34,009 nt of DNA, from IMG/VR virus record IMGVR_UViG_3300006802_000279, positions 1-34,009 of that record; one strand, given 5' to 3'. The DNA comes from a virus. Of this stretch, positions 29,144 through 34,009 are shown piece by piece. The position numbers were made by a program, and so were the translations under genes. The first letter of the stretch is position 1, and the number at the start of each line of letters is the position of its first letter. Below the pieces are notes generated by a model. That model saw nothing but the letters and a program-made list of their open reading frames with translations. It was not told the DNA's origin and made no database searches.

Positions 29144-29693
29144 ACTTAATTACAATATCATTTGATTTCATACAATAAAGACGCTCTTCATCAATAAAAA
29201 ACTCCCATTCAGCGCCTGGTTTAAAACCTATCATGTCTCCTGAGATGATTTTAGATGCTTCTAATGAAGTATTACCTATTTTTAGTATACCAACATAAGG
29301 ATCTTCTTTTCTGTTTAAAAGAGGATCAGAATTTTTTATTGGTTTTACAAAGCATCTATCACCAAAAGACAACCATTTATCTTTATTTTTATATAAATAT
29401 ATTTGATCTAAACTTGCAAAATACATATTGTCTTTAAAATAAGATCTACTATCTTTTTTTTTACCTTGCATGTCATAGAATCTTCTAAATATATTTTGAT
29501 GCACTACGACTATATCACCTTTTTTTATAGGTGTTTTTATAGCTAATGGTGTTTGTAGAACTTTAGCGAAACGATTTACAAATTTCCAGGATTCTATTTT
29601 AGTATTTAATACTAATTTTTTATCTCCAATTTTTTTTACATTATCGTATCTTTCACCTATTGGTTCTACAATAAAGTCATATAAACTTTTCAT
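29088..29693 (-). CDS. Conserved phage protein, possibly GroES-like fold
   Basis: 201 residues, rich in beta strands with Lys and Phe/Tyr. It starts MKSLYDFIVEPIGERYDN and goes on to LNTKIESWKFVNRFAKVLQ, PIKKGDIVVVHQNIFRRFYD and DRCFVKPI. The layout V-x-P-x-G-x-R, N-T-x-I, A-K-V, GD-x-V-V-V-H resembles the order of strands in GroES (co-chaperonin) monomers, and a second weaker copy follows (YVGILKIGNT, SGDMIGFKPGAEWEF, YCMKSNDIVIKYG). Phage co-chaperonins such as T4 gp31 help fold the capsid protein, so such a gene beside head genes would make sense. This fold assignment is tentative; the mobile loop cannot be recognised. The 3' end overlaps the next gene by 56 bases, more than usual. Confidence 0.6.
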   Translation of the reverse strand: MKSLYDFIVEPIGERYDNVKKIGDKKLVLNTKIESWKFVNRFAKVLQTPLAIKTPIKKGDIVVVHQNIFRRFYDMQGKKKDSRSYFKDNMYFASLDQIYLYKNKDKWLSFGDRCFVKPIKNSDPLLNRKEDPYVGILKIGNTSLEASKIISGDMIGFKPGAEWEFFIDEERLYCMKSNDIVIKYGHEKNKEEYNPSWSHSS

Positions 29694-30608: not shown

Positions 30609-31064
30609 TTACTTTTTAAATATGCTAGTTGCTTTTTCTGTCGTACGTCCGCCAAAATAGGCTAAGATTACAGACATCATAACCTTCTCAAAAGTATCAT
30701 TCCAAGTTTCATGTATGTTAAATGGAATGGTATCGATACTGTCTAGTATACCTGCAAAAGAAAATACGACAATGCACCATACTAGAACAAGTGGGCGCAC
30801 ATTTTTACTCAACCAAGAATCAGACATTGAGTCAGCTTCCCATCTTGAAGTAATAGCTTCTATTTCTTTATTTTGTTGTTCGTATATTAATTGCTGTAAT
30901 TTAATTTTATCTTCTAAAGAAACGTCTGATTTAGTTATTTCAGCTATTGCTTCTTTAGGAGACGTTACACCTTGTAATACGTTTCCTAGTGTAGGATTTA
31001 TTACAGACGCTGCTCCAAACAATAATTGTCCAACAGTTGTGTCTTTAAATTTCTTTTTACTCAT
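30609..31064 (-). CDS. Holin-like membrane protein (GTA/3TM holin type)
   Basis: 151 residues. The N-terminal half is soluble and helical (SLEDKIKLQQLIYEQQNKEI, then ITSRWEADSMSDSWLSKNVR), followed by PLVLVWCIVVFSFAGIL, a transmembrane segment, and FEKVMMSVILAYFGGRTTEK, a second hydrophobic helix. The phrase RWEADxxSDSWLSKNxRPLVL is highly characteristic, from memory, of the holin family first described in gene-transfer agents. A holin opens the inner membrane at the end of infection. It lies beside the HExxH protein and far from the M15 endolysin at 2383-2844, so lysis functions are split across the two ends of the late arm. Starts 2 bases after the preceding stop. Confidence 0.75.
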   Translation of the reverse strand: MSKKKFKDTTVGQLLFGAASVINPTLGNVLQGVTSPKEAIAEITKSDVSLEDKIKLQQLIYEQQNKEIEAITSRWEADSMSDSWLSKNVRPLVLVWCIVVFSFAGILDSIDTIPFNIHETWNDTFEKVMMSVILAYFGGRTTEKATSIFKK

Positions 31065-31066
31065 AG

Positions 31067-31408
31067 TTAATATTTTTCGTAAGGATCTGTTTTACTATAA
31101 GCTTCTTTTTCCCATGGTAGGTTTTGAGCACCTTCATTCATTTGTGCTCTTGAATATTTTTTTCCTTTCCAATATACGAAATCATCATCATAATCGAGAT
31201 CACCTCTTTGCATTTGGTCAATATGTATTTTTTCATGATCAATTACACTTTGTCTTTCTATTGGATCTGTAATTTTATCTGATATTAAAATAGTACCATT
31301 ATTATTTGCTTTTCCTAAAACACCATCTTCAAGATTAGTATTATATATAGGAGTATTATCTCTCGCAAATGGAGGGTTTACTTTAAATTTACCTTTTAAC
31401 CTTATCAT
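31067..31408 (-). CDS. Small zinc-metallopeptidase-like protein (HEKIH)
   Basis: 113 residues. The sequence VIDHEKIHIDQMQRGDLDYD contains an HExxH zinc motif, His58-Glu59-Lys60-Ile61-His62. A downstream acidic residue that could be the third ligand lies in NLPWEKEAYSK near residue 100, the pattern of gluzincin-type minimal peptidases. Between them are tyrosine/tryptophan-rich strands (DFVYWKGKKYSRAQM). The N-terminus (MIRLKGKFKVNPPFARDNTP) has no signal peptide. From memory, short proteins with this HExxH and WxxEAY layout are frequent in marine phage late regions. It might act in capsid maturation or lysis; its position beside the holin favours lysis. Activity is inferred only from the motif. 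Confidence 0.65.
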   Translation of the reverse strand: MIRLKGKFKVNPPFARDNTPIYNTNLEDGVLGKANNNGTILISDKITDPIERQSVIDHEKIHIDQMQRGDLDYDDDFVYWKGKKYSRAQMNEGAQNLPWEKEAYSKTDPYEKY

Positions 31409-31900: not shown

Positions 31901-32215
31901 TTATTGTTGAGTTGCTCTTTTTTGTAAGTCCTGTTCTTCTTTTTTTTGTTTTCTTTTTTCAATTAAATGACTAGCTACTTTACCAACGGTTTCTCCTATC
32001 TTCATTATATTTTCTTGTTGTTTATATAATGCTTGTGTAGCAGTTGGATCATACCAGTCACTAGGACTACTAGAAATTGTAGGTATACGAAAATAACCAC
32101 CTTTTGGTGAAGAATATTTACTAACATATGAAAATGGTGATCTATTACCAAATCCTATATTAAAACTATTCTTTTGATTTAAAAAGTTACCTCTTATTTT
32201 ACCTATTGTATCCAT
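31901..32215 (-). CDS. Hypothetical small phage protein, 104 residues
   Basis: Basic protein starting MDTIGKIRGNFLNQKNSFNI. The N-terminal half is rich in Gly, Ser, Tyr and Phe (NRSPFSYVSKYSSPKGGYF) and carries two SP dipeptides; the C-terminal half is a long charged helix (IMKIGETVGKVASHLIEKRK, then QKKEEQDLQKRATQQ). This split resembles small internal virion or scaffold-linked proteins, but I recognise no family. Its stop is followed in the same frame by an 18-codon coding-like stretch (31844-31900). The start overlaps the end of the frameshift-dependent frame next to it: only one base separates its ATG from that frame's TAA, which supports the reality of that frame. Confidence 0.6.
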   Translation of the reverse strand: MDTIGKIRGNFLNQKNSFNIGFGNRSPFSYVSKYSSPKGGYFRIPTISSSPSDWYDPTATQALYKQQENIMKIGETVGKVASHLIEKRKQKKEEQDLQKRATQQ

Positions 32216-32216
32216 A

Positions 32217-32405
32217 TTAACCTGCGTGATAACCTCTTAATGCCGCTTCTGCTTTTGCTTTACTAGCATATTTAGCTGGCCAAGGTTTATCTGTTTTATT
32301 ACTAATTACTCTCCAAGCACCACCCATTTGTTTAATACATCCGCTTCCACCTTCTGATTTAGCGCACGCATTAGCTGGGCTTGATGAATGTCTATTTATA
32401 TCAGT
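32217..32405 (-). pseudogene. 62-residue domain reachable only by -1 frameshift at an A9 run
   Basis: In this frame the text reads TDINRHSSSPANACAKSEGG, then SGCIKQMGGAWRVISN and KTDKPWPAKYASKAKAEAAL to RGYHAG-stop (TAA 32217-32219). The part with MGGAWRVISNK, PAKYxSKAxAEAAL and YHA is, from memory, a recurring C-terminal domain in marine phage proteins. The frame is closed upstream by TAA at 32412-32414 and has no start codon before its 27th residue. The gene at 32396-33028 enters an A9 run (32405-32413) as AAA-AAA-AAA; a -1 slip there joins exactly into this frame. So it is either a programmed frameshift product or a gene broken by a homopolymer indel. Confidence 0.6.
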
Positions 32406-33028
32406 TTTTTTTTAATAGTTTTTTTAATTCCAAATTTAGGTAAATCATTTAAACTTTTTTCTTCAGCATACTGTGTAGTATAATCTTTACCTTTGTAGCT
32501 AAAAGTACCTTTTGATCCAGACATTTCTCTAGCTTTTTTAAAAGCATCATTAAAACTATAATCACCTACAAAATTAGTATGATTAGAATTAACTTTGCTA
32601 CTATAACCTTTCATGCCCATTTTTTCTGTTTGGTTCATCGGTGAATCAGGTCTTTCATAAATCATTTCATCTATGTCTTTTCTTCTTTGTTCACCTGATC
32701 TTTCGTCATCACCTCTTTTTTTACCAGATCTTTCGTCAGTAGCTCTAGATTTTAATTCATAATAAATATCTTGAACATCTCCTTTTCTTTTTCTAGCTAT
32801 TTTTTCAGCTTGTCTTCTTATATGAGCATCAGTATGCATACCCATTGGAGAGCAGTTAGAGTTAGCTGGTGATTTTTTGTCAGCTATATCATTTTCTAAA
32901 TAATGTAATCTAGCTTTACCAGTTAAATCTTTATCATAAGCCATTTTAGCATCATATGCTTCGTCTTGTCTTTTAGAAAATCTAGGGTGATTACCACTGT
33001 ATTGCCCGTAATGTCCTTTGTGTCCCAT
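32396..33028 (-). CDS. Basic phage protein with SPAN/SPMN motifs, ends on A9 slippery run
   Basis: 210 residues as read in the normal frame. The start MGHKGHYGQYSGNHPRFSKR is His/Gly-rich. Motifs include KKSPANSNCSPMGMH and RPDSPMNQTEKMGMKG. A helical region has HIRRQAEKIARKRKGDVQDI and then two DERSGKKRG/DERSGEQRR near-repeats. Toward the C-terminus YSFNDAFKKAREMSG and GTFSYKGKDYTTQYAEEK form a small domain (FNDAFxxAR...F.Y.GK.YxT) often seen in marine phage proteins. The normal frame ends poorly, KKTIKKKLI, right after an A9 run, while the -1 frame continues with a 62-residue conserved-looking domain (32217-32405). The full product may therefore be about 270 residues. Likely a minor virion protein; role unknown. 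Confidence 0.68.
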   Translation of the reverse strand: MGHKGHYGQYSGNHPRFSKRQDEAYDAKMAYDKDLTGKARLHYLENDIADKKSPANSNCSPMGMHTDAHIRRQAEKIARKRKGDVQDIYYELKSRATDERSGKKRGDDERSGEQRRKDIDEMIYERPDSPMNQTEKMGMKGYSSKVNSNHTNFVGDYSFNDAFKKAREMSGSKGTFSYKGKDYTTQYAEEKSLNDLPKFGIKKTIKKKLI

Positions 33029-33036
33029 AATTTATT

Positions 33037-33384
33037 TTATTTTTTAGATGAGTATCTTCCTGGAGCTGCTTCAATAGCTTTCTTTAAATGCTCTGGTAAG
33101 TTTTTTTGTTTACCAACTAGTTCTTTTTCCATTGGACTATCTTTTTTCATTTTAGCTGGAGAACCTTTAGCATCACCTTTTTCGATGTCTACTATTGGCA
33201 TATCTTTTAATTCTGCTGATTCTCTATGCATACCATCTTTCATGTATATTGAAGAATCTCTGTGCATTCCGTGTTTCATATACATAGCTGAATCTCTATG
33301 CATACCTGATTTCTTGTCATCTTTATACATTTTTAAAGCTGACTTCATCATTTTCATCGGATTATTTTTTTGTGAATAAGGCAT
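33037..33384 (-). CDS. Repeat-bearing small basic phage protein
   Basis: 115 residues. It starts MPYSQKNNPMKMMKSALKMY and contains three tandem copies of a 12-residue unit: GMHRDSAMYMKH, GMHRDSSIYMKD and the shortened GMHRESAELKD. Then GDAKGSPAKMKKDSPMEKEL carries two more SP motifs, and the C-terminus KNLPEHLKKAIEAAPGRYSS is helical. Methionine and histidine are unusually frequent, which could bind metal. Small proteins with SPxK motifs and KNLPEHLKKAIxAAP-type ends are, from memory, known in marine phages, often with variable numbers of repeats. No function is known. A TTAATG-repeat leader sits just before the ATG. Confidence 0.68.
   Translation of the reverse strand: MPYSQKNNPMKMMKSALKMYKDDKKSGMHRDSAMYMKHGMHRDSSIYMKDGMHRESAELKDMPIVDIEKGDAKGSPAKMKKDSPMEKELVGKQKNLPEHLKKAIEAAPGRYSSKK
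33202..33306 (-). repeat. Three tandem 36-base coding repeats (GMHRDS units)
   Basis: Units at 33271-33306, 33235-33270 and 33202-33234 (the last shortened by one codon). They encode GMHRDSAMYMKH, GMHRDSSIYMKD and GMHRESAELKD. The DNA copies differ by synonymous and conservative changes (for example GGTATGCATAGA against GGAATGCACAGA), so the repeat is old enough to have drifted but is kept in protein sequence. Confidence 0.85.
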
Positions 33385-33417
33385 AATTGTTAATGTTAAT
33401 GTTAATGTTTATTTTTT
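33385..33417 (-). promoter_or_regulatory. TTAATG-repeat leader element, copy 2
   Basis: Directly before the ATG at 33382-33384 the plus strand reads AATTG, three TTAATG units (33390-33407), then TTTATTTTTTAATTG. It overlaps the last two codons and stop of the fibre gene. Apart from one extra hexamer it matches the element at 31826-31850. Candidate late promoter/leader. Confidence 0.5.
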
Positions 33418-34009
33418 AATTGTTCTATTTCTTGTTTTAATTCTTGTATTGCTTTTACAAGCATAGGTATAATATTAGCTTGTGAAACAGTATATTGATC
33501 AGGATTGTTAGTATTAACTATTCCTGTGTAGTCGTTTTCCATTTCATCAAGAACTTCTTTTACTTCTTGTGCTATAAAACCAGATGCTTCTTTGTCTTTA
33601 TCTACACCTGAATCTCTTAAATCCCATTTAAATTTTCTAGGTTTTAATTTGTCTATAAAGTTTAAACCTAATTCTAAATCTTCAATATCTTTTTTATCTC
33701 TAGCATCAGAAACAAATGACCATGCAGTGGCTGCTCCTTGAAACCTAGCTGTAACGCTTCCATTGTAAATACTAACCTCATTACTGACACCAACAGCAGA
33801 GGCTGCTGCTGTATATCCAATAATAATATTACTAGTACCTGTTGTTAAAGCATCTCCTGCTAAACCACCAACCAATGTGTTCTGAGTACCTGTTGTAACT
33901 GCTATACCTGCATTATGTCCAACAGCTACGTTATATATAGAGCCAGTACCATCTTGATTCATCAACGCAGCGTGTCCTACAGCTACACTTGCGCTACCTG
34001 TGTCTTCAC
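33402..34009 (-). CDS. Tail fibre/spike C-terminus with S74 intramolecular chaperone (partial)
   Basis: The frame is open to the right edge, so the 5' part is missing; about 200 codons are visible. The visible start holds fibre repeats of the form VAVGHxA: SVAVGHAALM, NVAVGHNAGIAVTTGTQNTL, then NIIIGYTAAAS. The end is a peptidase S74 chaperone: VSDARDKKDIEDLELGLNFI, DKLKPRKFKWD, GFIAQEVKEVLDEM, and a C-terminal coiled coil (IQELKQEIEQLKNKH). In this family the chaperone trimerises the fibre and cuts itself off before a conserved Ser-Asp; here Ser is encoded at 33708-33710 and Asp at 33705-33707. The product recognises the host surface. It is at the promoter-proximal side of the visible late arm. 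Confidence 0.85.
   Translation of the reverse strand, partial: EDTGSASVAVGHAALMNQDGTGSIYNVAVGHNAGIAVTTGTQNTLVGGLAGDALTTGTSNIIIGYTAAASAVGVSNEVSIYNGSVTARFQGAATAWSFVSDARDKKDIEDLELGLNFIDKLKPRKFKWDLRDSGVDKDKEASGFIAQEVKEVLDEMENDYTGIVNTNNPDQYTVSQANIIPMLVKAIQELKQEIEQLKNKH

Follow-up and report, generated by a model that had tools for sequence, protein, structure and literature searches.

A probable recent frame break where poly-A joins the modules of a variable phage accessory gene

Some genes are interrupted at a run of As and rescued by transcriptional slippage. In Citrobacter rodentium tssM1, an A11 run restores 20-25% full-length product (PMC4256274). 

In Blochmannia and Buchnera, genes broken at poly-A tracts are rescued by transcriptional slippage (PMC3017870). 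Single-nucleotide insertions during transcription become sharply more frequent as runs lengthen to 9-11 (PMC5574713), and the E. coli polymerase is more prone to slip on T than on A (PMC6260861). For slippage on A runs the length considered is n above 7, and isolated frame breaks that lie outside a conserved cluster are ascribed to indels or errors (PMC3711429). Programmed -1 frameshifting is described for phage structural genes, among them lambda G/GT and T7 gene 10 (PMC5009743).

The stretch of DNA analysed here (the window) comprises 34,009 bases of viral sequence with 32% GC. Judged by its sequence the phage is akin to Flavobacterium and Cellulophaga phages. The best terminase match, at 62% identity, is from an uncultured podovirus; Flavobacterium phage terminases are 46% identical, and the next-ranking matches belong to Cellulophaga, Tenacibaculum and Maribacter phages. 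Elsewhere the window encodes an S74 chaperone domain (33402-34007), a HEKIH motif (within 31067-31408) and a protein with a weak three-helix holin match (30609-31064). The gene of interest comprises a frame-0 ORF, the head, and a C-terminal domain in the -1 frame, the tail, which meet at nine consecutive As. The features are as follows.

32396-33028, minus strand: head ORF, frame 0, 210 aa, ending in ...GIKKTIKKKLI and a stop (ORF listing, translation)
32405-32413, minus strand: A9 run, codons AAA AAA AAA in frame 0, site of the frame break
32396-32404, minus strand: CTG ATA TAA, the last two sense codons of frame 0 and its stop, 3' of A9
32217-32411, minus strand: tail, -1 frame, KKTDINRHSSSPANACAKSEGGSGCIKQMGGAWRVISNK...GYHAG and a stop, predicted small beta-beta-beta-alpha domain (homology scans, AlphaFold)
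32217-32327, minus strand: 36-aa internal ATG ORF in the tail frame, which could serve as an independent start, though a poor one
32300-32404, minus strand: possible irregular RNA hairpin 3' of A9, a weak candidate stimulator (synonymous-codon z -2.5)
31901-32215, minus strand: next gene, 104 aa, starting 1 base after the tail stop, as in intact relatives

Frame 0 reads ATT AAA AAA AAA CTG ATA TAA through the run, so that a potential slippery heptamer, A_AAA_AAA, is present in the correct register. The -1 frame has a TAA just 5' of the run and then continues as KKTDINRHSSSPANACAKSEGGSGC...GYHAG; the whole open stretch, KKTDINRHSSSPANACAKSEGGSGCIKQMGGAWRVISNKTDKPWPAKYASKAKAEAALRGYHAG and its stop, ends at 32217 and is followed by a single base and the ATG at 32215. 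ORFs and translation thus confirm what the initial annotation had described, a 210-codon gene that runs through A9 and stops two codons on, with a domain of about 62 residues in the -1 frame. The one-base gap to the next ATG is likewise present, and in the intact relative L001 a single base likewise separates the end of the gene from the following ATG. The annotation was right about the stop just 5' of the run; its statement that the -1 frame has no usable start needs correcting, as there is an ATG at 32327 (36 aa).

The tail is truly coding, far above chance, because 90 viral stretches encode relatives and dN is low against dS. Searching IMG/VR with the tail sequence gave 29 loci, and searching it with the tail alignment gave the 90 viral stretches, of which 80 were kept; the family is common to more than 80 viral loci. 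Its members share a core, CAKSEGGSGC, which is the most conserved part, and a C-terminal YHA, and the tail of the window retains all residues that are invariant in the family. Against in-frame relatives its dN is about 0.05-0.13 and its dS 0.34-0.78. The AlphaFold model of the tail (pLDDT 76) is a beta-beta-beta-alpha fold whose modest-scoring matches are chiefly phage proteins that are uncharacterised, with none in the PDB, and a search of genome contigs gave one distant match, in Erysipelothrix (L088). The domain is also found in proteins of far larger phage contigs of up to 231 kb (L044, L045 and L071-L076), several of which begin with an ITESEL-type motif.

The head has an N-terminal module (about residues 1-131) with the signature GH.G..YSGNHPRFS...YDAK.AY.KDL and an orphan middle stretch (about residues 132-205). 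This stretch, at 32425-32640 (FNDAFKKAREMSGSKGTFSYKGKDYTTQYAEE), is without relatives in the collections searched, and it parts the head module from the tail module in the phage of the window only. Short SPAN/SPMN-like motifs (KSPANSNCSPM, DSPMN, SSSPAN) are repeated across 32217-33384 and occur in relatives too, and the neighbouring gene carries motifs of the same type (GSPAK/DSPME). Among the named phages searched there was no homologue of the head and one weak match to the tail. The suggestion that this is a capsid or tail gene finds no backing: the head ORF is without a Pfam or PHROG match and no feature marks the protein as either.

In relatives the two parts are usually a single reading frame. 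Complete ORFs that join the head motif and the tail number 24, at least 23 of them distinct given that L026 and L027 are nearly identical, and further truncated relatives are likewise in one frame. When fused ORFs of relatives are matched to the window, the head/tail gene is the only one that they match in two frames; one extra two-gene match, at 33100, is an L148 ORF that covers two adjacent genes of the window. In close relatives the junction reads ERPDSPMNACAKSEGG, with no A-run, while L170 has A8 right at the junction and L010 and L067 have a run of A9 or A10 ahead of the tail, all in frame. The head occurs without any tail in L118, L122, L125, L133, L145 and L160, and the tail is a stand-alone gene in L004 and many of L043-L069, where it starts upstream of the CAKSEGGSGC motif. 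Head and tail therefore seem dispensable to each other. The initial annotation had named both parts in one frame in relatives as the result that would speak against recoding, and this is largely what was found, including the in-frame A8 of L170; its view that both parts belong to one gene family, offset by -1 and joined by an A_AAA_AAA that could slip, is supported.

Stand-alone tails raise the question of whether the tail of the window is translated independently, from the ATG at 32327 or by reinitiation past the frame-0 stop. Distant relatives do have such genes and the ATG exists, but its product would lose CAKSEGGSGC, upstream of which the stand-alone relatives begin and upstream of which the tail frame has no ATG, GTG or TTG. 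Independent translation is thus very improbable.

The only other contig with a -1 break is IMGVR_UViG_3300027917_000344 (L003/L006/L035), which reads TCA TCA AAA AAA AAA CTG ATA TAA and has an A10 run. By sequence divergence it belongs to a different phage, with a dS from the window of about 0.75 in the terminase and 0.67 in the portal, and 83.6% nucleotide identity over 7.3 kb. From the A-run through the tail, by contrast with these values, only 2 of 195 nucleotides differ (99% identical, dS 0.025), a number so low that, given how far the genomes have diverged overall, its probability is about 5e-13. The block of identity is bounded by the A-run at one end and stops shortly into the next gene at the other, and immediately 5' of the run the two phages have unrelated sequences. 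Since the dS of the tail is so low despite those of terminase and portal, the shared break would most simply be one recently exchanged block that was joined at the poly-A to left sides that differ. The initial annotation had put forward conservation of both the frame break and the slippery run as support for recoding; the second copy does not show this, as it sits within the exchanged block. A scan for the exact junction DNA and one for A8 or more together with the tail motif gave only L035 and the in-frame L170, and a terminase scan added more relatives with no further break among them.

In the second contig the A-run is also flanked on either side by a 21-bp piece, GATATAAATAGATATTCATCA (about 9500-9560 in L035, about 3370-3430 in L003), so that the junction of L003 contains a 32-bp tandem repeat that is out of frame. 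In L030, compared with L029, an independent 4-base tandem duplication (TCTA) breaks the same gene near its N-terminus; the gene may for that reason tolerate breaks better than the terminase does, although the numbers are small.

Homopolymers are the usual place for sequencing or assembly errors, and with nearly all relatives in frame it might be supposed that the real run length puts both parts in one frame. Such an error is unlikely because a second contig, from a different phage with an A10 run and a different left side, has the same break, the search for further frame breaks in the window gave none, and all 80 related contigs have an intact terminase. Furthermore, the other A9 run on a coding strand (29454-29462) is in frame inside a 201-aa gene, and homologues align through it without a break. 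The existence of this second run in a genome of 32% GC also makes the junction A9 unexceptional. Against synonymous shuffles long runs are in fact rarer than expected in the genes of the window, with 7 of A8 or longer (14.9 expected) and 2 of A9 or longer (5.9 expected).

Functional, selected slippage would yield two C-termini in a set ratio, either by -1 ribosomal slippage on A_AAA_AAA or by transcriptional slippage that adds one A. The slippery run is perfect, the tail is intact, precedents exist (PMC4256274, PMC5009743), and with A9 in the window and A10 in L003 both runs are long enough for poly-A transcriptional slippage. The break is seen in two phages whose upstream sequences differ and whose register is the same, a coincidence with a chance of one in nine for two independent joins; this is mild evidence for constraint and the main remaining point in favour of a function. 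On the other hand, the break is limited to one recently exchanged block, so long conservation is not indicated, relatives manage without it, and the GeneTack criteria ask for conserved clusters of five or more (PMC3711429).

No Shine-Dalgarno-like motif lies at the usual upstream distance in either the window or the L003 copy. The 114 nt from the A-run fold at -31.3 kcal/mol in the window (z -4.2 against dinucleotide shuffles) and at -33.8 in the L003 counterpart, and the downstream fold is the most stable among 11 sequences tested. Against synonymous recodings z is -2.5 for the window (7/300 as low) and -2.6 for L003 (4/300 as low), but the in-frame relative L009 folds nearly as low, at -2.0, the others ranging from -1.2 to +1.5. 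The main helix begins about 15 nt 3' of the run, and the 65 nt directly 3' of it are without structure (z +1.3). The fold is modestly unusual, and as the two broken copies are nearly identical in sequence they together amount to one weak observation. On the sequences compared here a programmed frameshift is not supported, and selected slippage of either kind is possible but doubtful.

The probable explanation is a recent natural frame break, possibly leaky, at the module junction of a variable accessory gene. The normal form of the gene would be a head, a variable middle and a tail domain in one frame, and we infer that a recent rearrangement or indel at the poly-A junction moved the tail to the -1 frame in this lineage. 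Intact single-frame relatives exist and the break does not extend beyond a single lineage or block, as for breaks ascribed to indels. The main product is most likely the 210-aa protein, which lacks the tail. With an A9 run at the junction, some full-length protein may arise through RNA polymerase slippage (+1 A) or ribosome slippage on A_AAA_AAA, which would be a side effect of the junction and not an evolved, conserved switch. Three observations run counter to a recent break: two different upstream sequences share one -1 register, the downstream fold is the most stable of the 11, and the tail keeps its invariant residues as if it were expressed. A recent break looks the same in this last respect, and there is as yet no decay of the tail, although the 2 changes between the broken copies are too few to judge by.

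It is also conceivable, if rather unlikely, that poly-A acts as a frame-tolerant joint of a modular phage gene that is shuffled fast. Slippage would let the tail be joined to different heads out of register and still be produced at low level; the outcome would be two alternative C-termini, or else an on/off state that reverses with changes in run length. Should slippage be shown to be in use, the locus would be a simple case of a homopolymer joint that tolerates out-of-frame swaps of phage modules. More generally, it cautions that a clean slippery run followed by a conserved out-of-frame domain can stem from a recent natural break, and single-frame relatives settle such cases.

The single-frame relatives, such as L001/L008, L007, L011 and L029, have the same head and tail modules as the window but a continuous frame with no poly-A at the junction, where the window is split. 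Lambda G/GT and T7 gene 10 combine a slippery heptamer with a C-terminal extension, for which the window has potential equivalents, but they are structural genes, whereas the window protein bears no structural marks and its break is unconserved across the family and lacks clear stimulators. With tssM1 and the Blochmannia and Buchnera genes the window shares several features: in all of them a gene is split at a run of As, one additional A restores the frame, and the C-terminal domain is intact, and the symbiont cases are AT-rich as is the window. tssM1 differs in having an A11 run in place of A9. Compared with tssM1 and the symbiont genes, the short head protein of the window may function by itself, and its break seems to be recent.
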